Shown here: positions 4,717-55,498 of the stretch, one piece after another | How positions within the stretch are numbered: position 1 is the stretch's first letter | Layout of the letters: every line of letters starts with the position of its first letter | NCBI GenBank assembly: GCA_945872065.1 | Contig: CAMBYH010000008.1 | Span: forward strand, 1 to 64,000 | Origin: Arsukibacterium tuosuense | GTDB lineage: Bacteria > Pseudomonadota > Gammaproteobacteria > Steroidobacterales > GCA-2729495 | Length of the DNA: 64,000 bases | Direction of reading: 5' to 3' | The notes under the pieces: generated by a model | Database searches by the model: none | Told to the model about the DNA's origin: nothing | What the model saw: the letters and a program-made list of their open reading frames with translations, nothing else | Made by a program: the position numbers and the translations under genes

Positions 4717-5032
4717 GCGCGACGGCCCGCGGCGCTGAACTCACCTCATGAATCACGCGCAACCTTTTGTCCTCAGGGGCAGCACCGGCAACCACAGCCC
4801 TTGCGTATCAACCTGCGATTAACCACTGCGCAGATGCGCTGAACAAGAACACAGCACTCCGTTTCGTCGTGCTATGCTTTTGCTCACTCGCGAGTGGCCA
4901 ATAATTCTTCGACGATTCGCCGCGAGCATCCAGAGCTTTACAAGCGCTTGAGAATTATTGCCTTTGGTGATAGTGCCGGCAGCGGCAACACCACGATGGC
5001 AACCGGGGTTGGTCTTTCTTGGGGGGCGGGGA
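4717..5032. promoter_or_regulatory. Gene-free leader upstream of fis
   Basis: A 316-nt stretch with no convincing coding sequence. It is more AT-rich than its flanks between about 4850 and 4965. It contains a perfect 12-bp palindrome (CACTCGCGAGTG, 4885-4896) and a 10-nt inverted repeat (CAATAATTCT at 4899-4908, AGAATTATTG at 4951-4960). It probably holds the fis promoter and control elements. The dusB gene that usually precedes fis in this class is not here. Confidence 0.55.
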
Positions 5033-5347
5033 GTGGTAGCGAAAAAGGTACGCAGCAAAAACTCAATCAGGAAGCACGCTTCGCCACGCCAGGGTGCTTC
5101 CACCATTCGCGTCCGGAACCGCCCGCTCCGGGACTCCACTGAAGAAGCCCTGCAGAAATACTTTGGCGATCTCAACGGCCATCGGCCGGGGGATCTGTAT
5201 GAACTGGTTCTGGGCGAAGTCGAAGAACCCCTCTTCAAGACGGTGCTGGACTACACCAAGGGCAACCAGAGCGTGGCGGCCGAGATCCTTGGGATCAATC
5301 GCGCCACCTTGCGCAAGAAACTCCGGCATTACCAGCTGCTCGGCTAG
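5033..5347 (+). CDS. fis: DNA-binding protein Fis
   Basis: Small nucleoid-associated, DNA-bending regulator. The start chosen is GTG at 5033, giving 104 aa, close to the ~98 aa of the family, with a purine-rich GGGGAG just before it. A basic N-terminal arm is followed by the helical core (LYELVLGEVEEPLFKTVL) and the C-terminal helix-turn-helix (GNQSVAAEILGINRATLRKK). It stands alone after a 316-nt leader instead of being the second gene of dusB-fis. purH follows 54 nt downstream. The frame is open back to 4958, but the extra residues do not look coding. Confidence 0.93.
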   Translation: MVAKKVRSKNSIRKHASPRQGASTIRVRNRPLRDSTEEALQKYFGDLNGHRPGDLYELVLGEVEEPLFKTVLDYTKGNQSVAAEILGINRATLRKKLRHYQLLG

Positions 5348-5401
5348 CGCGGCGGCGGGTAGCGTGGCAACGGGCAGTTTGGCGGCGTGTAGAGCGATGG
5401 C

Positions 5402-6946
5402 ATGAGGCGCGCACTGATCAGCGTGTCCGACAAGGCCGGCGTGGTCGATCTCGCGACCCGGCTCCGGGGCTTGGGTTTCGACCTGATCTCCACCGGCGGC
5501 ACAGCTGCCACGCTGCGAAACGCCAGCCTGCCGGTTACGGATGTGTCTGAAATCACTGGCTTTCCCGAAATCATGGACGGGCGGGTAAAAACCCTCCATC
5601 CCGCCATTCACGGGGGCCTGCTGGGCCGTCGTGCCGTGGACGACGCAGTAATGCGCGAGCACGGCATCGGCCCCATCGACCTGCTGGTGGTCAATCTCTA
5701 TCCCTTTGAAGCCACGGTAAGCCGCCCGGACTGCACGCGGGACGACGCCATCGAGAACATCGACGTCGGCGGGCCGGCAATGCTCCGGGCCGCGGCGAAG
5801 AACCACGCCTTCGTGGCCGTGCTGGTGGATCCGGCAGACTACGGGCGCGTCCTCAGTGAACTCGAGCAGAACGGCAGCGTGGGCTTCGACACGCGCCGCT
5901 ACCTCGCCCGCAAGGCATTCGCCCACACAGCCAGCTACGACGCCGCCGTCTTCAACTGGCTGCGCCAGGCTGATGGGGACACCGCACTGCCCGTCCGCTA
6001 CCCGCTGGGACTGACCTTGCGGGACACCCTGCGCTACGGCGAGAACCCGCATCAGCGGGCGGGCCTGTATACGGTGCCCGGTGGTGCTGCGGATACCGTG
6101 GTGGGTGCGACGTTCCGCCAGGGGAAAGAGCTGTCCTTCAATAATCTGGCGGATGCGGATGCGGCCCTCGAGTGCGTGCGTACTCTGGCGGCGCCCGCCT
6201 GCGTGATCGTGAAACACGCGAACCCCTGCGGCGTGGGCCTGGCCACCTCCACCACAGCTGCTTATGAGAAAGCCTATGCGACGGATCCCACCTCCGCCTT
6301 CGGGGGCATCATCGCCTTCAACACCACCGTGGATGGCGCGCTGGCAACCCTGATCATCGAGCGGCAGTTCGTTGAGGTGATGGTGGCTCCGGCCTACACA
6401 CCCGAAGCCCTGATGGCGCTGGCCCGCAAACCAAACATTCGCGTGCTCGAGACGGGGCCGCTGCGCCCGGTGCTACCGCCGGGATTGCGGGTTGAGCAAC
6501 TCGAAGGTGGCATGCTGGTGCAGGACGCAGACGTGGCAACGCTCTCCGCGGATGACCTGCGCGTCGTCACCCAACGCCAGCCGACTGCCACCGAGCGGGC
6601 CGACGCGGAACTGGCCTGGAAGCTGGTGCGTTCGGTGAAGTCCAACGCGATCCTGTTGGTCCGGGACGGCGCCACCATTGGCATCGGCGCCGGCCAGATG
6701 AGCCGGGTGATGAGTGTGCGCATAGCGGCCTGGAAAGCCGAGGAAGCGGGCCTGAAGACCGCCGGCACCGCCCTCGCCTCTGACGCCTTCTTTCCATTCC
6801 GGGATGGCGTGGACCTGGCGGCCAGTTTTGGCATCCGCACCCTCATTCAGCCCGGTGGCTCGGTGCGGGACGCGGAAGTGATCGCCGCCGCAGACGAGCA
6901 CGGCATGGCCATGCTGTTCACCGGCATGCGGCACTTCAGGCACTAG
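5402..6946 (+). CDS. purH: Bifunctional AICAR transformylase/IMP cyclohydrolase
   Basis: Catalyses the last two steps of de novo IMP synthesis. At 514 aa it is close to the usual ~525. The N-terminal MGS-like IMP cyclohydrolase domain ([12 protein letters not shown] through [10 protein letters not shown], about 1-195) precedes the transformylase domain, which has the Lys-His pair in [10 protein letters not shown], an AFGGIIAF motif and the C-terminal [10 protein letters not shown] and MLFTGMRHF motifs. purD starts 2 nt after its stop, so the two are a translationally close pair, as in most gammaproteobacteria. Confidence 0.98.
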
Positions 6947-6948
6947 CC

Positions 6949-8235
6949 ATGAAGATCCTCGTCGTCGGCGGTGGTGGTCGCGAACACGCTCTGGCCTGGA
7001 AACTGGCCCAGTCGAAGGATGTCGAGGAAGTCATTGTCGCGCCCGGTAATGCAGGCACTGCACTGGAGCCGAAGGTGCGGAATGCGCCGGTCGCTGCAGA
7101 GGACATCGACGCGCTCCTGAAACTCGCGAAGGAAGAGCACGTAGGGCTGACCGTGATCGGCCCCGAGGCACCCCTCGCCGCCGGTATCGTCGACCGCTTC
7201 TGGAACTCCGGCCTGCGCTGCTTTGGCCCCCGCAAACAGGCAGCGCGCCTGGAAAGCTCCAAGACCTTCGCCAAGGAATTCATGGTCCGCCATCGGATTC
7301 CGACGGCGCACCACGCGTCTTTCACCGATCTTGAGGAGGCGCAGGTCTACCTGGAGCAGGTGGGCGCTCCGATTGTCGTCAAGGCCGACGGACTCGCCGC
7401 CGGCAAGGGCGTGGTGGTCGCGCAGACGCTCAAGGAAGCCCACGCAGCCGTGACGGAGATGCTGGGCGAGCGCAGTTTTGGTGACGCGGGCGCCCGGGTG
7501 GTCATCGAGGAGTTTCTGGTCGGCGAGGAGGCGAGCTTCATCGCGATGGTCGGCGTCGACGGCGCGATCCTGCCGCTCGCCACGTCCCAAGATCACAAGG
7601 CCCGGGACGATGGGGACTTGGGGCCGAACACCGGCGGCATGGGCGCCTATTCACCCGCGCCAGTGGTTACCGCTGCCATTGCCCAGCGCGTGATGAACGA
7701 AGTGCTGCGCCCGGTCGTGGAGGGTCTGCGGGAAGAAGGCGTGCGCTACACAGGCTTCCTCTATGCGGGCCTGATGATCGGCCCGGACGGTACGCCAAAG
7801 GTCCTCGAGTTCAACTGCCGCTTCGGCGACCCGGAAACCCAGCCCATTCTTTTTCGCCTGAAGTCCGACCTGCTGCGCCTGATCGACGCCGCGCTGGACG
7901 GCAAGCTCGGCAAAACCAAAGTCGAGTGGGACCCGCGCCCCGCCGTCGGCGTCGTGATGGCCGCCGGTGGTTACCCGGGCGACTACCGCAAAGGCGACGA
8001 GATCTCGGGCCTGCCTGCTGCTTCACCCACCAGCAAGGTCTTCCATGCGGGCACCGGGGTCGACGCCGGCGGGAAGATCGTGACGCGGGGCGGGAGAGTT
8101 CTGTGTGTTGTCGGCACCGGCGACACAGTGAAGGCGGCGCAGGCCGAGGCCTACCGGGTGATCGAGCAGATCCGCTTCGAGGGCGCGCTTTACCGCCGGG
8201 ACATCGGCTACCGCGCCATCGCCCGCGGGCTGTAG
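6949..8235 (+). CDS. purD: Phosphoribosylamine-glycine ligase
   Basis: ATP-grasp ligase that joins glycine to phosphoribosylamine, the second step of purine synthesis. It is 428 aa, the standard length. Visible motifs are the N-terminal VVGGGGREHALAWKL, VKADGLAAGKGV in the ATP-grasp region, and the PurD signature GPNTGGMGAYSPAP near residue 225, with CRFGDPETQ at the metal site. It lies 2 nt after purH. A methyltransferase gene follows 9 nt downstream and may share the transcript. Confidence 0.98.
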   Translation: MKILVVGGGGREHALAWKLAQSKDVEEVIVAPGNAGTALEPKVRNAPVAAEDIDALLKLAKEEHVGLTVIGPEAPLAAGIVDRFWNSGLRCFGPRKQAARLESSKTFAKEFMVRHRIPTAHHASFTDLEEAQVYLEQVGAPIVVKADGLAAGKGVVVAQTLKEAHAAVTEMLGERSFGDAGARVVIEEFLVGEEASFIAMVGVDGAILPLATSQDHKARDDGDLGPNTGGMGAYSPAPVVTAAIAQRVMNEVLRPVVEGLREEGVRYTGFLYAGLMIGPDGTPKVLEFNCRFGDPETQPILFRLKSDLLRLIDAALDGKLGKTKVEWDPRPAVGVVMAAGGYPGDYRKGDEISGLPAASPTSKVFHAGTGVDAGGKIVTRGGRVLCVVGTGDTVKAAQAEAYRVIEQIRFEGALYRRDIGYRAIARGL

Positions 8236-8244
8236 GGGGAAGCC

Positions 8245-8706
8245 ATGAACGCCCTCGAAACCAGAATCCCGCCGCCTCTCGCCGGCCTGCTCATGGGCGT
8301 CGTCGCCTGGCTGGCCTCGTCCGCCTTCGCGCCGACCACCCTGCCCTTTCTGGTCCGGCTCGGGAGTGCTATCGCGTTCGTTGTCCTGGGCCTCGCCCTG
8401 GCCGGTGCCGGGGCCCGCACGGTCAGCAGGGCCAAGACCACGCTGAATCCGATCAGACCGGATACCTCGACCGCGCTGGCCACTTCCGGCATCTACGCCT
8501 ACACACGCAACCCGATGTACCTGGGCATGGCTGCATGGCTGCTGGGCTGGTCCGCCTGGCTCGGCACGCTCGCCGGCCTTGTTGGCGCCCCGCTGTTCGT
8601 GCTCTACATGAACCGGTTCCAGATCGGACCAGAGGAGCGCGCCCTCGCAGGGCTTTTCGGCGCGGACTTTGCCGCCTACCGGGCGCGCGTCCGCCGCTGG
8701 CTATAG
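8245..8706 (+). CDS. Isoprenylcysteine/phospholipid methyltransferase family membrane protein
   Basis: A 153-aa integral membrane protein of the ICMT/PEMT superfamily. Hydrophobic segments lie at about 10-30, 35-57 and 88-118. The C-terminal half carries the family signature: TSGIYAYTRNPMYLG (SAM-binding side), then Q-I-G-PEERAL, FGADF and YRARVRRW. The family methylates small lipids or isoprenoids in the membrane; the substrate cannot be told from sequence. It starts 9 nt after purD with a GGGGGA ribosome-binding site, so it may be the tail of the purHD transcript. Confidence 0.8.
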   Translation: MNALETRIPPPLAGLLMGVVAWLASSAFAPTTLPFLVRLGSAIAFVVLGLALAGAGARTVSRAKTTLNPIRPDTSTALATSGIYAYTRNPMYLGMAAWLLGWSAWLGTLAGLVGAPLFVLYMNRFQIGPEERALAGLFGADFAAYRARVRRWL

Positions 8707-8728
8707 GCTTGAGTCAGCTCTTGCCCTC

Positions 8729-9142
8729 ATGATTCCTGCCGACCCGGCTATCCGGCGCCGCTGGCTGATTGGCATCGGGCTATTCGCCGCTGGATGGTTC
8801 CTCTTGCTGGGGCCCGTTGCCAATGCGCTCTACGGCCTGCCAGGGGCGGCGCCAAGCAGCGCCCTCCAGGCGAACCGGCTTATCTACGAGGAGCTGGTGA
8901 AGCTGGTAATGCTGCTGGGTGTGGCGGGGCTGACCGCCTGGCTGGGGACAAAGACACTGACAACCCGGTCATTTCCGCCTGCCGGGCTGCGGGTGCCTTT
9001 CCAGATGAGCATCAACCAGGGTAGTGCCGCGGTCTTGCCGGGCATCGGCCTGCTGCTGGTCGCACTCGTTACGGTCGGGTTTCGCCTTGCGTCGCTGCGC
9101 GTGACGCTGGAACTGGCGGCGGTATTGCGGCGGGTTGGCTAA
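8729..9142 (+). CDS. Uncharacterised small membrane protein
   Basis: A 137-aa hydrophobic protein that I do not recognise. Predicted membrane segments are about 13-32, 53-72 and 100-122, with basic residues (RRR at about 9-11) before the first helix favouring an inside N-terminus. It starts 22 nt after the methyltransferase gene. The frame is open into that gene, but ATG 8729 fits best. Composition matches its neighbours. It is convergent with the toxin gene, whose stop is only 10 nt away. Confidence 0.55.
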   Translation: MIPADPAIRRRWLIGIGLFAAGWFLLLGPVANALYGLPGAAPSSALQANRLIYEELVKLVMLLGVAGLTAWLGTKTLTTRSFPPAGLRVPFQMSINQGSAAVLPGIGLLLVALVTVGFRLASLRVTLELAAVLRRVG

Positions 9143-9152
9143 AACAGTCGGA

Positions 9153-9491
9153 CTAAATGGGCAGCAACGCCCGCAACGACTTTCGAACCTGCTGCTGATC
9201 CCCGGGCCCGAGCTGGCCAACCTTCCGCAGGATCAAACCCTGATCCAGAGTGAACAACTTCATCCGGACGACTGACCGGGACGGCAGTCCTGCAGCCGCC
9301 TGACCCTTCACCGGAACATCGAGTAGCCACGCCGGATTGTCGGCACTCGTGATCATTGCCAGGACGGATCGCCCCGGATTCTCCCCAAGCGCCCGCGTGT
9401 TGGACAGCACCAGGGCTGGACGTCGGCGCGTGGCCGCGCGGTCGGTAAAGGGAAACGGCACCACGACCACGTCGAAAGCGTCATAGGTCAC
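9153..9491 (-). CDS. PemK/MazF-family toxin
   Basis: Probable endoribonuclease toxin of a type II toxin-antitoxin module. It is 112 aa with the PemK/MazF N-terminal strand motif DVVVVPFPFTDR, then RRPALVLSN, and a C-terminal VRMKLFTLDQ strand like the family's VR..K..TLD. The start is a GTG at 9491. Its first 11 nt overlap the end of the antitoxin gene upstream, so translation is likely coupled. Known members cleave mRNA and are held inactive by the partner antitoxin. Cleavage specificity is unknown. Confidence 0.85.
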   Translation of the reverse strand: MTYDAFDVVVVPFPFTDRAATRRRPALVLSNTRALGENPGRSVLAMITSADNPAWLLDVPVKGQAAAGLPSRSVVRMKLFTLDQGLILRKVGQLGPGDQQQVRKSLRALLPI

Positions 9492-34297: not shown

Positions 34298-35424
34298 CCT
34301 CGGCCGGGGCTTTGGCCCGGGCCAGCCAGCTCCCGGCGTGCGCCGCCCCCGCGAACGCTGAGTCCCGGGGCGCACAGTTCCGCGTCCAGTACTGAAATCC
34401 CGGCCGCCGCATACCCGGCATGCAACGCCTGGGCCACCGTGCGGGAGTCCGTCAGGGCAATCCCGAAGTCGCCCCCGCCGGCGCCAGACGGTTTGTAGAC
34501 CGCGCCGTGCTTCAGGGCAATCTCCCGCAGCCGTTCGTGGCTCGCGGAGAAAATGCCAATGCCCGCCGCTGCATCCAGCTGCCGGAGTCCGGACTCGTAA
34601 CCCGTGATGGCGCTAAACAGGCCACTGAGGTCTTCAGCCCGCCAGGCCGCGACGGCCTGGCCAGCGTTCGCCCCGAGGCGTTCCATGTGGCTCGCGAAAC
34701 GCCCGGCATCCCGCTCGCGAAAGGCGCGTAATCGGCTGAGCATTGCCGGCGTCGAGGCACTCTCGCCCGACCAGACCGCCACGAGGCTCAGCCGCCGGGG
34801 CCAGGACACGGGCTGGGCCTGGGGTACGGGCGCCTCCGGTCCGGACTGGCGATTGAAGGCGATGGCTACCGTGCCGCCGGTAATCGCCGTGGCCACATCG
34901 ACTCCGCTGCCAAGGCCGCCCTGGAGGCGGCGGTGGGCCTCGCAACAGATGGCGGTAAGCTCTTCCTGGCTCAGGATCGGGCCGCCGGCTAACCGCAACA
35001 GGGCCCCGGTGAGGGCCACGACGATGGCTGCGCTCGAACCCAGACCCAGCTTCACGCGCTGGCCATCGGGGGAGGTCTGGTGAAAGGCCGCCGTGGTCAG
35101 CTCGATCCGGCAGGGCGGAAGTTCCGAGGCACGGGGCAACAGGCCCCGGACAGTCAGTATTTCCGCGCAGGCTTCCAGCGGCAGCCCGAAGGCCCCGGGC
35201 GAATCCCCTTCCCACCGGGGACCGCTTCCCGAGACCCAGCGAAACCGGAAGCTTTCACCCGTGTCCGGGATGACCAGCTGATTGCCAGACCCGGCGAGTG
35301 ACGTGATCCGGGCTTCCGCCCGCACGTCCACGGCGACGGCCAGACCGGGCGCTCCGGCCAGCACGGCGTACTCGCCGACGATCACCAGCTTGCCCGGGGC
35401 CCGGGCTTCAATCAGCGTTGGCAC
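34291..35424 (-). CDS. Phosphomevalonate kinase (GHMP family)
   Basis: Phosphorylates mevalonate-5-phosphate to the diphosphate. The protein has 377 aa and three GHMP motifs: ARAPGKLVIVGEYAVLAG at the N-terminus, the phosphate loop KLGLGSSAAIVVAL (about residue 127), and YKPSGAGGGDFGIAL near the C-terminus. The GSGVDVATAITGG stretch and the APGKL..GEYAVL start favour phosphomevalonate over mevalonate kinase. The start is GTG 35424, overlapping the end of the decarboxylase gene by 17 nt. Its end overlaps HMG-CoA synthase by 7 nt on the other strand. Confidence 0.85.
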   Translation of the reverse strand: MPTLIEARAPGKLVIVGEYAVLAGAPGLAVAVDVRAEARITSLAGSGNQLVIPDTGESFRFRWVSGSGPRWEGDSPGAFGLPLEACAEILTVRGLLPRASELPPCRIELTTAAFHQTSPDGQRVKLGLGSSAAIVVALTGALLRLAGGPILSQEELTAICCEAHRRLQGGLGSGVDVATAITGGTVAIAFNRQSGPEAPVPQAQPVSWPRRLSLVAVWSGESASTPAMLSRLRAFRERDAGRFASHMERLGANAGQAVAAWRAEDLSGLFSAITGYESGLRQLDAAAGIGIFSASHERLREIALKHGAVYKPSGAGGGDFGIALTDSRTVAQALHAGYAAAGISVLDAELCAPGLSVRGGGARRELAGPGQSPGRGQ

Positions 35425-36379
35425 GGAGACGGGCCCCCTCGCCCAGAGGGCTGCGCAGAATCTGCAGTACGCCCGGCAGATTGCCCAGCGCCACGGCGAC
35501 GTCGTCCGCGGCGCCCGGCAGGCAGATGGCCTTCACCTGGGGGCCGGCGTCGACGGTAAAGAACACGGGCACGCCGTCCTGGCGCAACGCCTGGATCTTG
35601 TGCAGACAGGCGAGCGTTGCCGGTGTCCAGTAGAGCAGCGGCGGCCGCGTGGTCAGCATTACAGCGTGCATTTTGAGGCAGTTGTGCTCGGCGATGGCGG
35701 CCAGTGCCGGGAAATCCCGGTGGCGCACAGCCGCAAGGCCGGCATCCAGGTCCGCGGCATGGGTCTCTACCCACGCGTCATAGAACGGAGAAGTCTGCTC
35801 GCTCTGGGCCATACCGAGCCGGGAACTGATCGCCTTCGGTCCCGAGGTCGTGACGGCCACAACTATCTGCAGGGGCCAGTCGGCAGCCGCCGCGATCTGC
35901 TCGCAGACTGTCGTTGCTTCCCGGTTCCGGAGCAACACCACGCCGCCCAGGAGGGAACGGGGTGCCGAACCGGAGCCCAGCCGGGCAATCTCGGCAAGGC
36001 GCTGGGCTGGGAGGTGGAGACCCAGGGCTCCGGCCCCCGCCGTAACCAGCGCCGCAAACCCGGACGCCGACGACGCAAGACCAGCGCCCGTGGGAAAATC
36101 ATTGCGGGACTCCACGAGCGCCGGGGTGCTGACCCCGGCCTCCTGCCGCAGCAGATCAAGGCAGGCGCTGACCCGGGCCGTAGTCTCCGGATCCTCCCGG
36201 CCATCCAGCAGGACCCGGTCGCGCCGGAGGGACGGGTCAAAGGTCACGCTGGTTTCGGTGGCAAGCCCCCCCAGGACCAGGGACAGCGAGCCCGTGGCCG
36301 GCAGGTTGCCCGCGCGGGCCCGCTTGCCCCAGTACTTGACGAGGGCCACGTTGGGGTGCGCGATCGCTACCGCACGCAT
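35408..36379 (-). CDS. mvaD: Diphosphomevalonate decarboxylase
   Basis: ATP-dependent decarboxylation of mevalonate-5-diphosphate to IPP. It is 323 aa from ATG 36379, which has a GAGGAG ribosome-binding site 5 nt upstream; a GTG two codons earlier is less likely. GHMP-fold motifs: AHPNVALVKYWGKR (family signature), the SLSLVL segment, FPTGAGLASSASGFAAL with its catalytic Asp/Ser region, and GSGSAPRSLLGG. A substrate Asp lies in VFFTVDAGPQVKAI. It is the first gene of the minus-strand pair with phosphomevalonate kinase and is divergent from ispA across 138 nt. Confidence 0.92.
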   Translation of the reverse strand: MRAVAIAHPNVALVKYWGKRARAGNLPATGSLSLVLGGLATETSVTFDPSLRRDRVLLDGREDPETTARVSACLDLLRQEAGVSTPALVESRNDFPTGAGLASSASGFAALVTAGAGALGLHLPAQRLAEIARLGSGSAPRSLLGGVVLLRNREATTVCEQIAAAADWPLQIVVAVTTSGPKAISSRLGMAQSEQTSPFYDAWVETHAADLDAGLAAVRHRDFPALAAIAEHNCLKMHAVMLTTRPPLLYWTPATLACLHKIQALRQDGVPVFFTVDAGPQVKAICLPGAADDVAVALGNLPGVLQILRSPLGEGARLRANAD

Positions 36380-46534: not shown

Positions 46535-46552
46535 GAGCGGCTTCAGCGGCGA
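46531..46552 (+). repeat. REP-like unit supplying the TANGO2-type gene stop
   Basis: A single 22-nt unit, GTAGGAGCGGCTTCAGCGGC with one change from the consensus. GTAG holds the stop codon at 46532-46534. It also reaches into the end of the convergent Sel1-repeat gene, whose last codons are read from its complement. Confidence 0.9.
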
Positions 46553-47130
46553 CCGTCAGCTTGTGTCCGTCGAATTTCCTCGGCCACCGCCGCCTGGGCC
46601 GCCGCCAGTTGCTCCCGACTGAGCTTCCCGGCCACGGTCTCCAGATTTTTCTGGGCCGACGGATGCCCCTGCAGGGCCGCCAGCGTCCACCAGCGGTAGA
46701 CCTCCGCCAGGTCCGGCTCGCCCGCCACTCCGTTGTAAAGAAGCGCGCCCAGATTGAACTGGCCCTTGGGGTGGCCCTGCTCCGCGGCCATGCGGAAGCA
46801 GTGCAGAGCTGCCATTTCGATCTTCGCCACGCCCGTGCCATTCAGGTACATCAGACCCAGGTTCACCTGGGCATCCGGGTTCCCCTGGTCTGCCGCACGC
46901 CGGTACCACTCCACTGCCGTCGCTTCGTTGCGTGGGACCCCGTCGCTGGTGTCGTACATCAGGCCCAGGTGCAGCTGAGCGTCCGCATGGCCCTGGTCAG
47001 CGGCCAGCCGGTACCAGCGCGCCGCCTCGGCAGCGTCCCGGGCGTCACCCTCGAGGTTGTCGTGGTGCAGGGCCAGTTCGTACTGGGCCTGGGGGTCGCC
47101 AGCGGCGGCAGTCCTGAGCAGTTCTTCCAT
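46543..47130 (-). CDS. Sel1-repeat (TPR-like) protein
   Basis: A 195-aa cytoplasmic protein made of Sel1-type repeats of about 36 residues: EAARWYRLAADQGHADAQLH, AVEWYRRAADQGNPDAQVNL, AALHCFRMAAEQGHPKGQFN and EVYRWWTLAALQGHPSAQKN. No signal peptide is visible. Such proteins are scaffolds for protein contacts; the partner is unknown. It is divergent from argR (91 nt between starts) and convergent with the TANGO2-type gene. Confidence 0.88.
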   Translation of the reverse strand: MEELLRTAAAGDPQAQYELALHHDNLEGDARDAAEAARWYRLAADQGHADAQLHLGLMYDTSDGVPRNEATAVEWYRRAADQGNPDAQVNLGLMYLNGTGVAKIEMAALHCFRMAAEQGHPKGQFNLGALLYNGVAGEPDLAEVYRWWTLAALQGHPSAQKNLETVAGKLSREQLAAAQAAVAEEIRRTQADGRR

Positions 47131-47186: not shown

Positions 47187-47221
47187 GCGCATCCCTTCGG
47201 GCTTATGTGCATGGAGAAACG

Positions 47222-47686
47222 GTGCCCATTTCCGCCGAGCAGCGTGAGGAACGGCAGCAGGTCATTCTCAAGATCCTGCGCCGCCAGCACGTCACTCGGC
47301 AGGACGAGCTGGTGGAGCTGCTCCGGAAGCGGGGCATCGACGCCACCCAGTCCAGCATCAGCCGGGACCTGCGCCAGCTGGGCATTTCCAAGCTGGACCA
47401 GGAATACCGGCCGGTGGAGGACGACGAAGACGCCGACGCCGGCAAAGGCCTGGGCCTGCTGGCAGAGTTCGTGGAGGAAACCCGCACGGCGGGGCCCTAC
47501 CAGACCGTGGTGAAGACGGTCGCCGGTGCGGCGGGCCAGGTGGCGCTGGCGCTGGATCGCTGTGGCTGGCCGGAGATCGTGGGTACGGTCTCCGGCGACG
47601 ACACTATTTTCATCGCCACCCGCACGGGTGGGGACCAGAGGAGGCTCGTAGCCAAGCTGCGGGCGAGATTGGAGAAACCGGCATGA
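47222..47686 (+). CDS. argR: Arginine repressor
   Basis: Arginine-responsive hexameric regulator, 154 aa from GTG 47222 (GGAG site about 8 nt upstream). The N-terminal winged helix-turn-helix has QDELVELLRKRGIDATQSSISRDLRQLG; the C-terminal oligomerisation/arginine domain has the GTVSGDDTIFIA motif with the Asp pair. It overlaps argG by 4 nt (ATGA). Leading its own biosynthetic operon is unusual for gammaproteobacteria but seen in firmicutes and actinobacteria. Confidence 0.95.
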   Translation: MPISAEQREERQQVILKILRRQHVTRQDELVELLRKRGIDATQSSISRDLRQLGISKLDQEYRPVEDDEDADAGKGLGLLAEFVEETRTAGPYQTVVKTVAGAAGQVALALDRCGWPEIVGTVSGDDTIFIATRTGGDQRRLVAKLRARLEKPA

Positions 47687-48918
47687 CCACCGACACGACG
47701 ATCCAGAAGAAGAGCGTTTCCCCCATCATCCTGGGCTTCTCGGGCGGACTCGACACGTCGTTCCTGGTGCCCTGGATGAAGGAGCACTACGGGCGCCCGA
47801 TCGTTACCGTCACCATCAACACGGGTGGCATCGACGCCGCCGCGGCGAAGGACCTGGAACGGCGGTCGGTGGCGCTCGGTGCCATCGAGCACGTGCTCGT
47901 GGAGGCCCGCTCCGTGTTCTTCGACCGGGTGCTTAAGTACCTGATCTTCGGCAACGTGCGCCGCGGCCACCTGTATCCCCTCTGCGTCGGCGCAGAGCGG
48001 GGCATCCAGGCCACGCTGCTGGCCGAGCTGGCCCGGGAGCGGGGTAGCGAGACCGTGGCCCACGGCTGCACGGCCGCCGGAAATGACCAGGTGCGCTTCG
48101 AAGTGGCCCTGCGCACCCTCGCGCCCGGCCTGGAAGTGCTGGCGCCGGTCCGGGACGAGGGCTTCATCCGGACCGAGCAGCAGAAATACCTGGAGCAGCA
48201 CGGTTTCCCCGTGCCCGCGAAGGGTTCTGCCTACTCCGTCAACCGGGGCCTTTGGGGCGTCACCGTGGGCGGCAGGGAGACTCTCGACTCGAAGGAGTCC
48301 ATTCCGGAAGACGCCTGGGTACTGTCGCCCAATGCCTTTGACAAGCCGCGCCCGATGGCAAGGCACACGGTCAGCTTTACCAAAGGCGTGCCCTTAGCCC
48401 TCGACGGCAAGGCCATGGACCCGGTCACGCTCATCGAGGCGCTGGAAACCGTGGCCGGCCCCTACGGCATCGGTCGCGGCATCCACGTGGGCGACACGGT
48501 GCTCGGCACCAAGGGCCGCGTGGCCTTCGAAGCACCCGCTGCCGATATCCTGCTCACCGCGCACCGGGAACTGGAGAAGCTCGTGCTCTCCGGCCCCCAG
48601 CAGCGCGTCAAGGATCAGGTGGCCACCCAGTACGGCGACTTTGTCCACGAGGGCAAGCAGCTCGACCCGGTGTGCCGGGACATCGAGGCGCTCCTCACCT
48701 CCGCCCAGCAGCGGGTCACGGGCGATGTGAAGATCGTGCTCCGGCCGGGCAGCCTGTTCATCGAAGGCGTCATTTCGCCCCACTCCCTGCTGGCCGCCAC
48801 CAAGGGCGTCTATGGCGAGAAGGCTGGCGAATGGACGCCTGCCGATGCGCTGGGCTACTCCCGGATCCTCGCCCTGCCCGGCATCCTGCAGACGCGGGCC
48901 GCCGGCGGCAACCAGTAA
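47683..48918 (+). CDS. argG: Argininosuccinate synthase
   Basis: Joins citrulline and aspartate with ATP. It is 411 aa. The N-type pyrophosphatase loop is GFSGGLDTSFLVPW; HGCTAAGNDQVRFE and YSVNRGLWGVTVGG follow at the citrulline and aspartate sites. Its start overlaps argR and the next gene begins 7 nt after its stop, so it is well inside the arginine operon. Confidence 0.97.
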   Translation: MTTDTTIQKKSVSPIILGFSGGLDTSFLVPWMKEHYGRPIVTVTINTGGIDAAAAKDLERRSVALGAIEHVLVEARSVFFDRVLKYLIFGNVRRGHLYPLCVGAERGIQATLLAELARERGSETVAHGCTAAGNDQVRFEVALRTLAPGLEVLAPVRDEGFIRTEQQKYLEQHGFPVPAKGSAYSVNRGLWGVTVGGRETLDSKESIPEDAWVLSPNAFDKPRPMARHTVSFTKGVPLALDGKAMDPVTLIEALETVAGPYGIGRGIHVGDTVLGTKGRVAFEAPAADILLTAHRELEKLVLSGPQQRVKDQVATQYGDFVHEGKQLDPVCRDIEALLTSAQQRVTGDVKIVLRPGSLFIEGVISPHSLLAATKGVYGEKAGEWTPADALGYSRILALPGILQTRAAGGNQ

Positions 48919-48925
48919 GGACGCC

Positions 48926-49981
48926 ATGAAAACCGTCATCGCCGACAAGATCGCCTCCATCGCCCAGCACCTGAACCTGAAGCGGGAGCTGCGCGTGAGC
49001 GCCGACATCCCCTGCGAGGAGGGCGTGGTGATCGCGGCCGAGGTGTTGAACAACAAGAACACCTACAACCAGCTGGAACTGACCAGCGGCCGCATGGCGC
49101 TCGTGAAGAAGGGCGACATCGTCGTCGCCGCGCTCGGCCACCGGAAGGCGCTGTTCGGCTACTCCGGGCACATCCCGGAGACCGTCGCCGTGGGCGACAC
49201 GCTGCAACTGCTGAACATGGGCGGCGTCATCGGCGTGTGCGACTCCATCAATGCCAGCTTCGGCCAGCCTTTCGATGCCCGGGTCCTGGGCGCGGTGCTC
49301 GACTTCCCCTACCTGGGCCAGCGCATCGGTGTGCCCGCCCGGATCGGCATGGAACAGCTCGCTGCCGAGCCGGTCGTGGATACCCAGGGCGTGCCGGTAA
49401 TTGCCATCGCGGGCACCTGCATGAACTCCGGCAAAACAGCGGCGGCCTGCGCCATCGTGAGCCGGCTGCGCCACCACGGCCACACGGTCGATGCCTTCAA
49501 GGCCACCGGCGTGTCGCTGCGCCGGGACATCCTGGCCATGGAGGATGCCGGTGCACGCTCCACGCTGATCTTTACGGACTTTGGCGTGGTCACGACCACG
49601 GGCCTGAACGGCCCCGGGGTGACGCGGACCATGCTCACCCGGCTGGCGGCCAGCAAGCCCGACGTGATCGTCTTCGAGCTGGGCGACGGCATTCTTGGCG
49701 CCTACGGTGTGGAGGCCATCCTGCGGGACAAGGGGATTCGTGACGCCCTGTCCTGCCTGGTGCTCTGCGCCAACGATCCGGTGGCGGCCTGGGGTGGCGT
49801 CAAGCTGCTGCGGGAAGACTTTGGCATTGAGCCCGCCATCGTCACCGGCCCAGCCACCGACAACGACGTCGGCAAGGACATCATCATCCAGCGCATGGGG
49901 GTCAAGGCGCTCAACGCGGTGACCGACTCCATGCAGCTCGGGGATGCGGTCACGACCCACGTGGGCCTGAAGCTGTCCTGA
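48926..49981 (+). CDS. Uncharacterised P-loop NTPase in the arginine operon
   Basis: A 351-aa protein that I cannot assign. The N-terminal ~150 residues look like a beta-rich domain (SGRMALVKKGDIVVAALGHRK, VGDTLQLLNMGG). Then comes an atypical P-loop, GTCMNSGKT (residues 163-171), KATGVSLRRDILAMEDAG, TDFGVVTTTG and VIVFELGDGILGAYG. The P-loop part recalls DUF1611, MobB and BioD-type proteins. It sits where related clusters (for example in Bacteroidetes) have an N-acetyltransferase gene. Start ATG 48926, 7 nt after argG; argC follows 19 nt later. No membrane segment. An ATP-dependent or regulatory role in arginine synthesis is inferred only from position. Confidence 0.8.
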   Translation: MKTVIADKIASIAQHLNLKRELRVSADIPCEEGVVIAAEVLNNKNTYNQLELTSGRMALVKKGDIVVAALGHRKALFGYSGHIPETVAVGDTLQLLNMGGVIGVCDSINASFGQPFDARVLGAVLDFPYLGQRIGVPARIGMEQLAAEPVVDTQGVPVIAIAGTCMNSGKTAAACAIVSRLRHHGHTVDAFKATGVSLRRDILAMEDAGARSTLIFTDFGVVTTTGLNGPGVTRTMLTRLAASKPDVIVFELGDGILGAYGVEAILRDKGIRDALSCLVLCANDPVAAWGGVKLLREDFGIEPAIVTGPATDNDVGKDIIIQRMGVKALNAVTDSMQLGDAVTTHVGLKLS

Positions 49982-50000: not shown

Positions 50001-51065
50001 ATGAACACCCGCACACCCACCCTCATCATCGGCGGTACCGGCTACGTGGCTGGCGAACTGCTGCGCCTCGTGGGCCAGCACCCCGGGCTGGAACTGGCTG
50101 GCGTCTCGTCGGAAAGCCAGGCCGGCACGGCAGTGAGCGCGGCGTTTCCCCATCTCGCACCGGTGGTGCGGGACCTGCCCTTTATCACCCAGGCGGAGCT
50201 GGCCGGGCGGATCAGGGGGCCCCGGGTGGCGCTGTTCTCGGCCGCACCCCACGTGGTCAGCGCCGGCGTCGTGGCCACCATGATCCGGGCGGCGGCAGCC
50301 CAGGGCAGCAAGCTCACCGTGGTGGACGCGTCATCGGACTTCCGCTTCCGGAACGCAGCGGACTTCGAGGCCGTCTACCAGCAGCCCCACGGTGCTCCAG
50401 AGCTGCTGCCCCAGTTCGTCTGCGCGTTGCCGGAGCACGTGCCGGGCATTCCCGGCCCCCACGTGGGGCACCCGGGCTGCTTTGCCACGTCCATGCTGGC
50501 GGGCCTCGTCCCGCTGCTGAAACTCGGCTTGAGCGATGGCCTGGTCTATGCCGCTGGCGTTACCGGCAGCACGGGCGCAGGCCGTGCCCCGCTCGCCACC
50601 ACCCACCACCCGGAGCGGCACTCCAACCTGTTTGCCTACAACCCGCTGAAGCACCGGCACACGCCCGAAGTGGTGCAGATCTGCAGGGAGCTGACGGGCG
50701 TGACTCCCGAGCTGAACTTCGTGCCCCACTCGGGCCCCTTCGCCCGGGGGATTCACATGACCCTGCAGGGCCGGCTCACGCGCCCGCAGACCAGCGACGC
50801 ATTGCGGGCGGCCTTTGCGCAGTTCTACGCAGGCCAGGAGTTCGTGCGGATCGTGGACGGCGCGCCGCGGGTCAAGGACGTGGCCGGCAGCAACTACTGT
50901 CACATCGGGGCGTCGGTGTCGGGCAATGGCCAGAACTTTGTCGTGCTGGTAGCGATCGACAATCTCGTCAAGGGCGCCGCCGGCGGCGCTGTGCAATGGA
51001 TGAACCGGCTGCTGGGCCTGCCCGAGTCCCAGGGGCTTACGGCACCCGCCCTTGGTTGGATTTGA
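50001..51065 (+). CDS. argC: N-acetyl-gamma-glutamyl-phosphate reductase
   Basis: NADPH-dependent reduction of N-acetylglutamyl phosphate to the semialdehyde. It is 354 aa. N-terminal Rossmann loop IIGGTGYVAGELLR, VDASSDFRFRN, catalytic Cys in GHPGCFATSM (about residue 157), catalytic His in HSGPFARGIHMT, and C-terminal IDNLVKGAAGGAVQWMN. It lies 19 nt after the P-loop gene and 18 nt before argD. The family could in principle also act on N-succinyl substrates. Confidence 0.96.
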   Translation: MNTRTPTLIIGGTGYVAGELLRLVGQHPGLELAGVSSESQAGTAVSAAFPHLAPVVRDLPFITQAELAGRIRGPRVALFSAAPHVVSAGVVATMIRAAAAQGSKLTVVDASSDFRFRNAADFEAVYQQPHGAPELLPQFVCALPEHVPGIPGPHVGHPGCFATSMLAGLVPLLKLGLSDGLVYAAGVTGSTGAGRAPLATTHHPERHSNLFAYNPLKHRHTPEVVQICRELTGVTPELNFVPHSGPFARGIHMTLQGRLTRPQTSDALRAAFAQFYAGQEFVRIVDGAPRVKDVAGSNYCHIGASVSGNGQNFVVLVAIDNLVKGAAGGAVQWMNRLLGLPESQGLTAPALGWI

Positions 51066-51083: not shown

Positions 51084-52247
51084 ATGAGCACAAGCACCGC
51101 AGCACAAACGGCAGAAGCGCGGCACCTGCTCCAGGTGTACGGCCAGCTGCCCCTGGAAGCCGCCGCTGCCGAGGGCGTGTACCTGCACGCCGGCAAGCGG
51201 CGCGTGATCGATTTCTACGGCGGCCACGCGGTGGCAGCCCTGGGCTACGCACATCCCGATCTGCTCGCGGCGCTCGAGGCCGAGGCCAGGACAATGTACT
51301 TCCAGAGCAACGCGGTGGCTCTGGAGGTGCGGGCCAGGGCGGGCGACGCGCTGGCCGCCTTTGCGCCAGCAGGACTCAACCGCGTCTTCTTCGTCAACAG
51401 TGGCGCCGAGGCCAACGAGAACGCCCTGCGGGTGGCGTGCCGGGCCACCGGCCGTTCCCGCGTGCTGGCCCTCGAATACGGCTTTCACGGCAGGACCGCC
51501 GCTGCGGCCGCCGTGACCTGGGGCGCCGCGAAAAGCTGGTACGGCTTTCCGCGCACACCTTTCGATGTCGAGTTCATTCCCCGGGACGACAGCGCCCGGG
51601 CCAGCGAGATGATCAACGGCGAGACTGCTGCAGTGATCATCGAACTCGTGCAGGGTCTCGCCGGCGCCTACGATCTGGACGAAGGCTTCGTGCGCACGGT
51701 AGCCGAGGCCTGTCGCCGGACGGGCGCGCTGCTGATCGTGGACGAGGTCCAGAGCGGCGTCGGCCGGACCGGCGCGCCCTTCGCCGCCCACCTCTACCAC
51801 GTGCAGCCCGACATGCTGACCACGGCCAAGGCGCTCGGCGGCGGCTTTCCCTGCAGCGCGCTGCTGATGACCGAAGCGCTCGCCCAGACGCTGAAGACCG
51901 GCGACCTGGGCACGACCTTCGGCGGCGGGCCCATGGCGTGCGCCCTGGTCAGCACGGTCATCCACGTCATCCAGCGTGACCTGCTCATGGACAACGTGCG
52001 CAAGCTGTCCGCGGAAATCTGCAAGCACGCGGTGACGGGGCCGGTGGAATCGATCCAGGGTCGGGGCTTCCTGCTCGGTCTGCGCTGCCGGCGTCCCGCC
52101 AAAGACATTCAGGCGGAACTGCTCCAGCGGGACATCCTGGTCGGCACCAGTTCTGACCCGCATGTAGTCCGTCTGCTGCCGCCGCTGACGCTGGAAAAGC
52201 AGCACGTGGCTAAACTCGTCAGCGCTCTCTGTGATATCGGCCACTAA
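51084..52247 (+). CDS. argD: Acetylornithine (or acyl-ornithine) aminotransferase
   Basis: PLP enzyme that transaminates N-acetylglutamate semialdehyde to N-acetylornithine, 387 aa. FVNSGAEANENALRVAC marks the PLP phosphate site, GFHGRTAAAAAVT follows, LIVDEVQSGVGRTG contains the Asp that contacts PLP, and the Schiff-base Lys is in TTAKALGGGFPC. It follows argC by 18 nt; the transcarbamylase follows by 9 nt. Confidence 0.95.
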   Translation: MSTSTAAQTAEARHLLQVYGQLPLEAAAAEGVYLHAGKRRVIDFYGGHAVAALGYAHPDLLAALEAEARTMYFQSNAVALEVRARAGDALAAFAPAGLNRVFFVNSGAEANENALRVACRATGRSRVLALEYGFHGRTAAAAAVTWGAAKSWYGFPRTPFDVEFIPRDDSARASEMINGETAAVIIELVQGLAGAYDLDEGFVRTVAEACRRTGALLIVDEVQSGVGRTGAPFAAHLYHVQPDMLTTAKALGGGFPCSALLMTEALAQTLKTGDLGTTFGGGPMACALVSTVIHVIQRDLLMDNVRKLSAEICKHAVTGPVESIQGRGFLLGLRCRRPAKDIQAELLQRDILVGTSSDPHVVRLLPPLTLEKQHVAKLVSALCDIGH

Positions 52248-52256
52248 GGAACCCTC

Positions 52257-53270
52257 ATGGGACTCAAGCTTTTCAATGACCTCGCGGACCTGCAGATACC
52301 GGAAGTGGAAGCCCTCCTGAAGCTGGCGCGCCGGCTGCAGGCCAGCCCCGAGCCCCGCGCTCTGGAAGGCAAGGTGCTGGCGCTGCTGTTCCTTAGCCCG
52401 TCGCTGCGGACGCTGTCGTCGTTCCAGGCGGCCATGGTGCGGCTGGGCGGCGGTTCCTTCGTGATCTCGCCAGACATGTCCATTCACGGCCTCGAAACCC
52501 GCTCAGGGATCGTGATGGATGGCATGGCGGCGGAGCACCTCCGGGAAGCGATCCCCGTGATCAGTTCCTACGGCGACGCGCTGGGCATCCGGGCCTTTGC
52601 CAACCGCGTGAACCTGGCCAACGACCTGGCCGACACCGAGTTCGTCGCCATGCGGGAGCTGGTGAAGGTGCCCCTCATCAACATGGAGTCGGCCATCCAG
52701 CACCCCTGCCAGAGCCTGGCCGACTGGAAAACCCTGGACGACCTCAACGTCCCGAAGAAGGGGGGCAAGTTTGTCCTGTCCTGGTCCTGGCACCCGAAGG
52801 CGCTGCCCCTGGCTGTGCCCTCCGCGACTCTGCACATGGCCGCCATGCGGGGCATGGACGTCACGGTCGTGCGGCCCGATGGCTTCGAGTTGCCGCCCGC
52901 AATCATGAACAAGGCGCGTCACGCGGCGACCCTCTCCGGCGGCACGGTGCGCGAAACGAACGACCGTGCGGAAGCCTACGAGGGCGCCCATGTGATCTAC
53001 GCCAAGGAGTGGTCCTCGACGAAGTTCTACGGGGACCGGGTAGCCGACCAGAAGCTGCGGGAGCCGCTGCAGGACTGGATCGTGGATGAGCCGACCTTCG
53101 CCACCGCCCAGCCGTCAGCGCGCTTCATGCACTGCCTGCCGGTGCGCCGGGGCGTGGCCGTGACCGACCGGGTTCTCGACGGTCCCCGCAGCGTGGTCAT
53201 CCACGAAGCCCAGAACCGGATGTGGGGCCAGATGGCCGTGGTCTACCAGATGATCGGCCCGGGCGTGTAA
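52257..53270 (+). CDS. argF': N-acyl-ornithine carbamoyltransferase (AOTCase/SOTCase type)
   Basis: A 337-aa transcarbamylase that acts on N-acetyl- or N-succinyl-ornithine, not free ornithine. The carbamoyl-phosphate site reads SPSLRTLSSFQ, not the STRTR of ordinary OTCase, and MDGMAAEHLREAIPV, INMESAIQHPCQSLADW and FMHCLPVRRGVAVTD match the AOTCase/SOTCase subfamily. From recalled structural work, Glu92 marks the Xanthomonas acetyl enzyme and Pro90 the Bacteroides succinyl enzyme; the aligned residue here is Ala92, so specificity is open. Overall wording is closer to SOTCase. An inverted REP-like pair follows the stop. Confidence 0.92.
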   Translation: MGLKLFNDLADLQIPEVEALLKLARRLQASPEPRALEGKVLALLFLSPSLRTLSSFQAAMVRLGGGSFVISPDMSIHGLETRSGIVMDGMAAEHLREAIPVISSYGDALGIRAFANRVNLANDLADTEFVAMRELVKVPLINMESAIQHPCQSLADWKTLDDLNVPKKGGKFVLSWSWHPKALPLAVPSATLHMAAMRGMDVTVVRPDGFELPPAIMNKARHAATLSGGTVRETNDRAEAYEGAHVIYAKEWSSTKFYGDRVADQKLREPLQDWIVDEPTFATAQPSARFMHCLPVRRGVAVTDRVLDGPRSVVIHEAQNRMWGQMAVVYQMIGPGV

Positions 53271-53349: not shown

Positions 53350-54282
53350 ATGAAAAGTCATGATCGGGATGTCATCGTCTCCGCGCTCCGGCACGCGGCA
53401 CCCTACATCCGTCTCTACAAGAAGAAGATTTTTGTCCTCAAGGCCGGCGGCGAAGTCTTTACCTCGGACGAAGCCACCCGGCACCTGCTGGAGCAGGTTG
53501 CACTGCTGCACCAGGTGGGCATTCGCGTGGTAGTCGTACACGGGGGCGGCCCCCAGCTGACGGAGCTTGCCGAAGCCCTGGGCGTGCCGACCAAGATGGT
53601 CGGTGGCCGCCGGGTTACGGACAAACAGACGCTCGACATGACCACCATGGTGCTGAACGGCAAGATCAACACCCGGATCCTGGCCGCGTGCCGCGACCTG
53701 CATCTGCCTGCGATCGGACTCAGCGGCGTGGACGCGGGCCTCATCAAGGCCCACAAGCGCCCGCCGGTCGAGGTGGAAGGCCACTCGGGCGGACCGGTGG
53801 ACTTCGGCTTTGTCGGCGACATCGACAGCGTGGACCCCGACGTGGTGCGGGCCCAGCTGGACAACGGCATGGTGCCGATCGTCAGTCCGCTCTCGGCGGA
53901 CGACAACGGCACCGTGCTGAACATCAATGCGGACACCGTGGCTGCAGCACTGGCGACAGCGCTGGGCGCGTCGAAGCTGATCCTGACCATGGGTGCGCCG
54001 GGCATACTTGAGGACCGGCACAATCCGTCCTCGCTGGTCTCCTACCTGGATCTGGAGGACCTGCAGGAGCTGCGGGCCAACGGCTCCCTGGCCGAGGGTA
54101 TGCTGCCCAAGGCCCGGGCCATCGAGGCGGCCATCAAGGGCGGCGTGCCCCGGGTGCACCTGATCTCCTACAAGATCCCCGACAGCCTGCTGCTGGAGAT
54201 CTTTACGAACGAGGGTACGGGCACGCTGGTCGTGGCAGACACCGACACGCTGACGCCCGAAGAACAGGAAGCGGGCGCCTGA
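53350..54282 (+). CDS. argB: Acetylglutamate kinase (arginine-sensitive type)
   Basis: Phosphorylates N-acetylglutamate. It is 310 aa with FVLKAGGEVF, VVVVHGGGPQLTELAEALG, NINADTVAAALA and ILTMGAPGIL motifs. An extra N-terminal helix (about 1-25) and the C-terminal EIFTNEGTGTLVV are hallmarks of the hexameric kinases inhibited by arginine, so feedback control is expected here. In Xanthomonas the kinase is fused to an acetyltransferase; here there is no such domain. Start ATG 53350, 23 nt after the repeat; argH follows. Confidence 0.95.
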   Translation: MKSHDRDVIVSALRHAAPYIRLYKKKIFVLKAGGEVFTSDEATRHLLEQVALLHQVGIRVVVVHGGGPQLTELAEALGVPTKMVGGRRVTDKQTLDMTTMVLNGKINTRILAACRDLHLPAIGLSGVDAGLIKAHKRPPVEVEGHSGGPVDFGFVGDIDSVDPDVVRAQLDNGMVPIVSPLSADDNGTVLNINADTVAAALATALGASKLILTMGAPGILEDRHNPSSLVSYLDLEDLQELRANGSLAEGMLPKARAIEAAIKGGVPRVHLISYKIPDSLLLEIFTNEGTGTLVVADTDTLTPEEQEAGA

Positions 54283-54307: not shown

Positions 54308-55498
54308 ATGAAACGTCTCTGGGACAAGGGCGAGCCTTTGGACGCGCGCATCCTCCGCTACACCGCAGGGGAGGATCACCTGCTGGACGCGCGGCTGGTA
54401 GCGTATGACGTGCGGGCCTCCATCGCCCACGCCGAGATGCTGCACGCGCAGAAGCTGCTCTCCGGGGAGGACCTGCAGCAGATCAGCAACGGGCTCGAGT
54501 CCCTTGCCGTGTCCCACGCGGCCGGCGACTGGCAGATCAGCCTCGAGGAAGAGGACTGCCACACGGCGCTGGAACAGCGGCTCACCCAGCTGATTGGTGA
54601 GGCCGGAGGACGTGTGCACCTGGGCCGTTCGCGGAACGACCAGGTGCTGGTGGCGCTGCGGCTCTACCTGCTGGACGCGGCCGCAGGAATCGCTGTGGCT
54701 GCCCGGGACGTGGCGACGGCTCTGGACGAGCTGGCCGCCCGGGAAAAAAACACCCTGCTCCCCGGCTACACCCACATGCAGCAGGCCATGCCGAGCTCGG
54801 TGCCCCTGTGGGCGGGCGGCTTTGCGGCCGAACTGCGGGACGATGCAGAGGGCCTCACTGCCAGTCGCCGCCGGCTGAGCAAGAGCCCCCTCGGCAGCGC
54901 GGCGGGCTATGGCGTGCCCGGACTGCCGATCGACCGGGAGGCAACCCGGCGGACGCTGGGTTTCGATGAGGTGCACGAGCCCGTCACTGCGGTACAGATC
55001 TCCCGGGGCAAGGGCGAGGCTGGTCTGGTTTTCGAGCTGGCCCTGCTCACCCAGGACCTGGGGCGGATGGCCGCGGATCTCCTGCTCTTCTATACCCAGG
55101 AGTTCCGCTTCATTGCCCTGCCCGACTCGATGACGACCGGCTCCTCGATCATGCCCCAGAAGCGCAACCCCGACGTGCTCGAGCTGGTGCGCGGCGCCGT
55201 GCCGACAGTGCAGGCGGCCCTCGCGGAAATCCTCGGCCTGCCGGCCAAGCTCGGCTCCGGTTATCAGCGGGATCTCCAGCGGATGAAGGCCCCGCTGTTC
55301 CGCGCTATCGACCTGGCCGGCGATTCGGCGCAGGTGATGGTGCATCTCATCCGCGAGCTGAAGTTCCTGCCCGGGAACATTCGCCTGGATGACTCGATCC
55401 ATGCCGCCGAGCGGGCCAATGCCTTGGTGCTGAAGGAAGGCATCAGCTTCCGGGAGGCTTACCAGCGGGTGGGAGCGGAGCTGAAACGCGGTTCCTGA
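54308..55498 (+). CDS. argH: Argininosuccinate lyase
   Basis: Splits argininosuccinate into arginine and fumarate. It is 396 aa, shorter than the ~457 aa E. coli form and closer to the Xanthomonas/Bacteroidetes type. Motifs: HLGRSRNDQVLVALRLYL, GYTHMQQAMPSSVPLW, GSAAGYGVPGLPID, and the fumarase-superfamily signature GSSIMPQKRNPDVLEL (about residue 280) with the catalytic Ser. It is last in the arginine cluster; a stem-loop follows directly after the stop. Confidence 0.95.
   Translation: MKRLWDKGEPLDARILRYTAGEDHLLDARLVAYDVRASIAHAEMLHAQKLLSGEDLQQISNGLESLAVSHAAGDWQISLEEEDCHTALEQRLTQLIGEAGGRVHLGRSRNDQVLVALRLYLLDAAAGIAVAARDVATALDELAAREKNTLLPGYTHMQQAMPSSVPLWAGGFAAELRDDAEGLTASRRRLSKSPLGSAAGYGVPGLPIDREATRRTLGFDEVHEPVTAVQISRGKGEAGLVFELALLTQDLGRMAADLLLFYTQEFRFIALPDSMTTGSSIMPQKRNPDVLELVRGAVPTVQAALAEILGLPAKLGSGYQRDLQRMKAPLFRAIDLAGDSAQVMVHLIRELKFLPGNIRLDDSIHAAERANALVLKEGISFREAYQRVGAELKRGS

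Follow-up and report, generated by a model that had tools for sequence, protein, structure and literature searches.

A P-loop Protein Encoded Within a Gammaproteobacterial Arginine Operon is a Putative Glutamate N-Acyltransferase

The window, i.e. the whole stretch of 64,000 nucleotides analyzed, carries an arginine operon on the plus strand with the gene order argR-argG-X-argC-argD-argF'-argB-argH, followed by polA. The argR gene (positions 47204–47686) encodes an arginine repressor that scores over the Pfam cut-offs and under the TIGR01529 equivalog cut-off. The argG gene (47683–48918) encodes argininosuccinate synthase and argC (50001–51065) N-acyl-glutamyl-phosphate reductase. The product of argD (51084–52247) belongs to the acylornithine aminotransferase family, its best NCBIfam model being argD at a score under that model's cut-off. 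The argF' gene (52257–53270) encodes an acylornithine carbamoyltransferase over the NF003384 cut-off; against the N-acetylornithine carbamoyltransferase model it scores 331 bits (cut-off 288). The N-acylglutamate kinase encoded by argB (53350–54282) consists of the kinase domain alone with no fused N-acetyltransferase domain, and the argininosuccinate lyase encoded by argH (54308–55498) has no fused GNAT. A Sel1-repeat gene is found on the opposite strand at positions 46543–47130, between a TANGO2-like gene and argR; among the loci compared it is matched in L002 and L004 alone.

X is an open reading frame of 351 amino acids with an ATG start, at positions 48926–49981 of the plus strand. It begins after a 7 nt gap from the end of argG at position 48918 and is followed by a 19 nt gap to the argC start at 50001. 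The tight packing between these two genes had been pointed out in the preliminary description, together with an atypical P-loop and a beta-rich N-terminal half; all of these are borne out here, as the sequence GTCMNSGKT is read at residues 163–171 (nt 49412–49438) and the predicted structure is beta-rich in the same region. A Pfam search with the X sequence gave zero matches at E 0.001, and a search of the open-licence literature found nothing on the family or its role. The gene belongs to no named family and is found in the arginine operons of a set of environmental bacteria. The open reading frame is not a chance one, since 40 aligned relatives display a mean column identity of 74% and the same gene follows in every one of the 80 loci described below.

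A scan of a one-genome-per-species collection gave at least 212 stretches with a relative of X, and the best 80 of these (63–99% identity) were kept. In all 80 the next gene is argC, with a gap of –13 to 122 nt by match ends; X is preceded by argG in 73 loci and by argR in the other seven. The same neighbor, argC, follows X in five of five further operons (L093–L096 and L189). The preliminary description had named wide occurrence without arginine genes as a refuting condition; in the 85 close loci examined argC is always next, and the homologues seen elsewhere are distant ones (approximately 25%–34% identity). A tree built from 25 relatives groups all 13 proteins from arginine operons in a single clade (support 1.0), and the distant homologues fall in other clades. 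Cultured carriers of X include Povalibacter uvarum, Peristeroidobacter agariperforans and Steroidobacter gossypii. The order argG-X-argC is found again in four genomes where X is more distant, at 45%–49% identity (G040, G118, G234 and G288), with X and argC separated by 573 nt in G288. In G654, which is outside the class, the order is argR-X-argC-argB and X is 64% identical.

Thirteen of the 80 loci have no argF' in the stretch. In six of these the contig ends shortly after X; the other seven (L029–L034 and L050) display the order argR-X-argC-argD-argB in a stretch without argG, argF' and argH. The four of these seven argF'-less genomes that were tested have a transcarbamylase elsewhere, with E-values of 1e-52 to 1e-55 to PF00185. 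The L185 transcarbamylase has 33% identity to argF', and from its sequence we read it as probably an ordinary ornithine carbamoyltransferase. Since X stays with argC and argB where argF', argG and argH leave, it is tied to the early steps, and so goes with the enzymes that lead from glutamate to acylornithine rather than with those of the late steps. In L029 a divergent gene of the deoxyhypusine-synthase family (PF01916, 286 bits; positions 8115–9335, minus strand) adjoins argR in the operon lacking argF', argG and argH. In addition, L029, L033 and L050 are titled as Gemmatimonadetes metagenome-assembled genomes and the similar L030–L032 and L034 as Gammaproteobacteria, which may represent mislabelled bins or transfer.

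The AlphaFold2 model of X has a pLDDT of 81 and displays two domains. The N-terminal beta-rich domain spans residues 1–155 (nt 48926–49390). The C-terminal P-loop domain spans residues 156–351 (nt 49391–49978) and, by fold and profile comparison, is of the MobB/BioD/CTP-synthase/DUF1611 class. In the alignment of 40 sequences the P-loop does not vary at G163, M166, G169, K170 and T171, and the invariant residues also include E251, G253, D254, G255 and D284. Five residues lie between the first glycine and the GK pair, as in the E. coli BioD sequence GTDTEVGKT. The usual Walker A spacing is one residue fewer.

Comparison of the region from about residue 150 to 351 with known structures gave CTP synthase (Z 17.8), the DUF1611 structures 2g0t (16.9) and 2obn (16.3), BioD (16.0) and the DgcN crystal structure 7xrj (15.3). 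For HypB and SRP GTPases, as for CTP synthase and BioD, the fit to the model is similar to or better than that of DgcN. These Z values are close together, thus the fold alone does not pick a family. The N-terminal domain, modelled at a pLDDT of 72, gave nothing clear when compared by itself with the PDB (best Foldseek E-value 0.39, best Z 2.8 by VIA); in view of this pLDDT, a new fold is not claimed. A search of the PDB with the X sequence returned a para-nitrobenzyl esterase and a variant surface glycoprotein, which are chance matches.

Profile comparisons place X far below the cut-offs of the MobB models, with 20.3 bits against a cut-off of 76.2 for TIGR00176 and 14.9 against 26.6 for PF03205. 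Among the 40 aligned relatives there are weak matches to MobB in 33 versus DUF1611 (PF07755) in 18, the best E-value of the latter being 9e-4. X itself has no PF07755 match listed at E 10, and none of the 40 relatives has a match listed at E 1 to the DgcN model NF041892 (cut-off 480 bits). Among 25 broader relatives MobB is matched in nine and DUF1611 in 13, with the better best E-value for MobB. An hhalign comparison of the broad X family with eight DUF1611 proteins gave a probability of 88 and an E-value of 3e-6 over 180 columns, confined to the C-terminal domain. The controls were single proteins: E. coli MobB gave 88.7 and an E-value of 2.5e-6 over 88 columns, E. coli BioD a probability of 33 and a DgcN-like protein a probability of 5. 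DUF1611 was therefore dropped as the clearly nearest family of X, given that a single E. coli MobB matches as well. X belongs to the MobB/BioD/DUF1611 P-loop class. The tie to DgcN, demoted by the high score of the MobB control, is weak and not specific and is taken as a lead, not as a sign of a kinship nearer than that to MobB. X does not match the models of the glutamate-acylating enzymes ArgA (TIGR01890, cut-off 202.85 bits) and ArgJ (PF01960), nor the Pfam GNAT domains; its C-terminal fold is predicted to be a P-loop domain.

The enzyme of the first step in arginine synthesis has been missing from genome annotations before, as sections of PMC7311316 and PMC3827942 describe. Sixty genomes were searched for the known enzymes of this step, 45 with X and 15 without. 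The former are counted as 44 distinct genomes, as G382 and G368 are the same by identical match places. Intact ArgJ is found in none of the 44 and in 11 of the 15 without X; G388, which has X, shows a 96 aa ArgJ fragment. ArgA over the cut-off is likewise found in none of the 44, and in 10 of the 15 without X. The ArgA-model matches in the X-carrying genomes are to the argB part (model positions approximately 2–281), apart from a partial sub-threshold match in G381 (positions 148–426, E 1e-19) and a short GNAT-only match below cut-off in 18 of the 44, the window's genome not among them, with E-values of 2e-9 to 1e-3. The N-acetyltransferase (NAT) domain of the bifunctional NAGS/K enzyme is over its cut-off in none of the 44 and in one of the 15. 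ArgJ, ArgA or the NAT domain is present in 13 of the 15 genomes without X, and the remaining two (G004 and G023) show no ArgB-like match in the ArgA-model search.

The preliminary description had called for a survey of co-occurrence with argF'-type transcarbamylases. Among 369 gammaproteobacterial genomes, with arginine-type X defined by an E-value below 1e-98, X is present in nine of 13 that have an acyl-ornithine transcarbamylase over the cut-off vs none of the 356 others (Fisher p = 2e-15, without correction for relatedness). Another 18 of the 369 carry no more than a distant X relative. The four genomes with the transcarbamylase and without X are G012, G165, G274 and G367; G012, the one of these searched for the NAT domain, has it. 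Counter to this pattern, two other genomes without X, G153 and G331, carry a partial argF' below the cut-off, of the Ala and Val type respectively. Both sequences are on contigs of approximately 3 kb, and X may be lost to assembly there.

The acyl group can be approached through a specificity position of argF'. In structures of acyl-ornithine transcarbamylase this position is Glu in some entries and Ala, Ser or Val in others, and its counterpart in the window's argF' is Ala91 (codon at 52527–52529, plus strand). The Ala, Ser and Val entries we take to be E92 variants of the Xanthomonas enzyme, which has Glu in the wild type. In the portion of PMC7311316 that deals with this position, S, P, A or V is stated to cause a preference for the succinylated substrate, and Ala places the window's argF' in the succinyl type by that rule. 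The residue is Ala in 63 of the 65 argF' sequences beside X, Cys in one and Arg in one; the loci counted were 64 of the 67 with an argF' match, three being too short. It is Pro in G040 and G288 and Val in G118 and G234, all of which carry X, and Val also in the partial argF' of G331, which does not. A clean contrast is seen in G012, G165, G274 and G367, where X is absent and the residue is Glu in four of four.

The M20 matches in the window's genome are DapE (528 bits vs 284), a PRK09133-type peptidase with an apparent signal peptide at its start, and one weak partial match. As DapE is the sole clear ArgE/DapE-type peptidase in this search of the M20 family, the enzyme is a candidate desuccinylase that could remove the succinyl group. 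G288 carries X and an ArgE over the cut-off, and for this reason an acetyl group fits G288.

The best explanation of these observations, which we consider probable, is that X is the glutamate N-acyltransferase of these bacteria, a putative non-GNAT enzyme that probably transfers a succinyl group. X is assigned to the first step because the known first-step enzymes searched for are not found intact in the bacteria that carry it. The basis of the proposal is the gene context, the absence of the alternatives and the argF' residue, not the fold; the reaction, the acyl group, its donor and the roles of residues are inferred. X would acylate the alpha-amino group of L-glutamate, in replacement of ArgA, ArgJ, NAGS/K or a GNAT. 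With succinyl as the most likely acyl group, ArgB, ArgC, ArgD and ArgF' would act on N-succinylated intermediates. The P-loop domain may bind the phosphate groups of an acyl-CoA acting as donor, in keeping with the name of DgcN, or those of an ATP that activates a free acid. The conserved residues Glu251/Asp254 and Lys192/Thr194, together with the N-terminal domain, may form the rest of the site. The preliminary description had offered a missing enzyme of acylation or deacylation, a chaperone or a regulator; acylation is favored by the absence of the known enzymes and by the persistence of X beside argC and argB, and the other three options are disfavored.

An ATP-dependent ligation is a sub-case of this explanation and takes about a third of its probability. 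Here the carboxylate would be phosphorylated as in BioD, CTP synthase and CobB, the glutamate amine would attack, and CoA would have no part. That CTP synthase and BioD, the top structural hits for the P-loop domain, are ATP users favors this chemistry, as does the invariance of G169, K170 and T171 in the 40 sequences. However DgcN, a glutamate-acting enzyme of the same fold class, is named an N-acetyltransferase (PMC11747546, in part), yet X is no closer to DgcN than to MobB. On balance we regard ligation as rather unlikely. Less probable still is that an unrecognized GNAT encoded elsewhere acylates glutamate and that X is an accessory protein, i.e. an activator, a scaffold or an arginine sensor. 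GNATs are numerous and diverse, and the S-NAGS enzymes known so far are GNATs of short length whose function may depend on a second protein, according to passages of PMC3827942. A census of PF00583 in five genomes gave eight GNATs in the window's genome, and the short GNAT matches to the ArgA model in 18 of the 44 genomes, which may represent S-NAGS-like GNATs, also fit this alternative. However, of the eight, one scores as RimI and none passes a glutamate-synthase model, and a search of this genome with the ArgA model gave no GNAT match. Seven of the eight were compared with GNAT loci of four other X-carrying genomes (six of seven in G040, five of five in G118, seven of 17 in G288 and six of nine in G654), and RimI alone has a relative, at 38%–51% identity, in all four. 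In addition, a search with one protein as query, the arginine-cluster GNAT of Bernardetia, gave no match at E 0.001 in any of 47 X-carrying genomes.

Two further explanations are given very little weight. X could be the deacylase of acylcitrulline or acylornithine, as the M20 matches of the window's genome leave this step too without a dedicated enzyme; but the first step would then have no known enzyme in any of the genomes with X, G288 has an ArgE as well as X, and X is retained at loci that lack an adjacent argF'. Equally improbable is an ordinary GTPase or ATPase, a chaperone or maturation factor of the MobB/HypB type, caught in the operon. The weak MobB matches in 33 of 40 members, the hhalign probability of 88.7 with E. 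coli MobB and the presence of HypB among the structural matches would agree with such a protein. However X is far below the cut-offs of the MobB models, the missing first enzyme would be left unexplained, and to our knowledge no maturation factor is known for arginine enzymes.

The distant homologues of X are found in several other settings. In one clade (L098, L099, L103 and L132) the P-loop reads G[TS]SMSAGKTT and an M20 peptidase gene is adjacent in four of four. In another (L100, L101, L106, L108, L225 and L227) an ABC transporter gene follows, and the protein is called DUF1611 in RefSeq where annotated. A homologue of 29% identity is found on a Priestia megaterium plasmid (L224; NZ_CP085446.1, positions 4899–5960), in a cluster with a PEP mutase family gene, two TPP-enzyme genes, two ATP-grasp genes, and genes for an ornithine carbamoyltransferase, an M20 peptidase and an LLM oxidoreductase; this looks like a phosphonate natural-product cluster. 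A fecal phage record (MT835675.1, positions 34912–35775; H29) has a homologue of 28.5% identity. The M20 pairing would be in line with a function of the wider family in acyl protection, which is offered as a suggestion.

The first step commits glutamate to arginine. If the explanation is correct, a non-GNAT enzyme would fill the annotation gap in a block of environmental gammaproteobacteria, the arginine pathway in its succinyl form would extend beyond Bacteroidota, and the P-loop fold would enter this step. A nameless family would gain a testable function, and DapE is predicted to serve two pathways. A wider proposal joins these elements and is put forward tentatively, as slightly less likely than not: X would represent a new class of non-GNAT N-succinylglutamate synthase, composed of a MobB/BioD/DUF1611-type P-loop domain and an N-terminal domain without a clear match; a broad gammaproteobacterial set would run the succinylated arginine pathway outside Bacteroidota; some members, the window organism included, would share DapE between lysine and arginine synthesis; and the wider family, whose genes adjoin those of M20 deacylases and also occur in the probable phosphonate cluster, would serve generally in N-acyl protecting-group chemistry.

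X can be compared with several known systems. With MobB, BioD, CTP synthase and CobB it has in common the fold of the P-loop domain and a profile similarity. Unlike these proteins, it is far below every curated cut-off, carries an extra N-terminal domain and is located in an arginine operon. With ArgA, ArgJ and the bifunctional NAGS/K enzymes X would share the metabolic step, but it matches none of their models and none of them was found intact in the X-carrying genomes tested.

The succinyl arginine pathway of Bacteroidota, in which a GNAT of the BT3761 type is proposed as N-succinylglutamate synthase (PMC7311316, in part), is a further comparison. The Bernardetia cluster reads GNAT-argG-argC-argD-argF'-argB-M20-argH, the same cluster make-up, and its argF' residue is Ser and thus of the succinyl class. 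The GNAT of this cluster would be the BT3761 orthologue by its position, where the proposed synthase is expected. The preliminary description had placed an N-acetyltransferase gene at the site of X in related clusters; in Bernardetia, which was checked, the gene does belong to the cluster, yet it precedes argG rather than separating argG from argC. The differences are that the BT3761-type enzyme is a GNAT and X is not, and that the cluster in the window has no M20 gene.

DgcN is a D-glutamate N-acetyltransferase (EC 2.3.1.312) according to parts of PMC11747546, is also covered in PMC10845958, in part, and is an N-acetyltransferase by its NCBIfam name (NF041892), with membership in the DUF1611 family PF07755 and the structure 7xrj. 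It resembles X in that the P-loop domains of both fall in one broad class, and in a chain length of approximately 340–350 aa, and acylation of the alpha-amino group of glutamate is named for DgcN and proposed for X. By sequence, however, X is no nearer to DgcN than to MobB, without an NF041892 match, and the hhalign and structure comparisons gave no sign of the N-terminal domain of DgcN in it. The partner genes also differ, i.e. argC and argB for X and the racemase gene dgcA for DgcN. X would serve L-glutamate in synthesis, whereas DgcN serves D-glutamate in breakdown.
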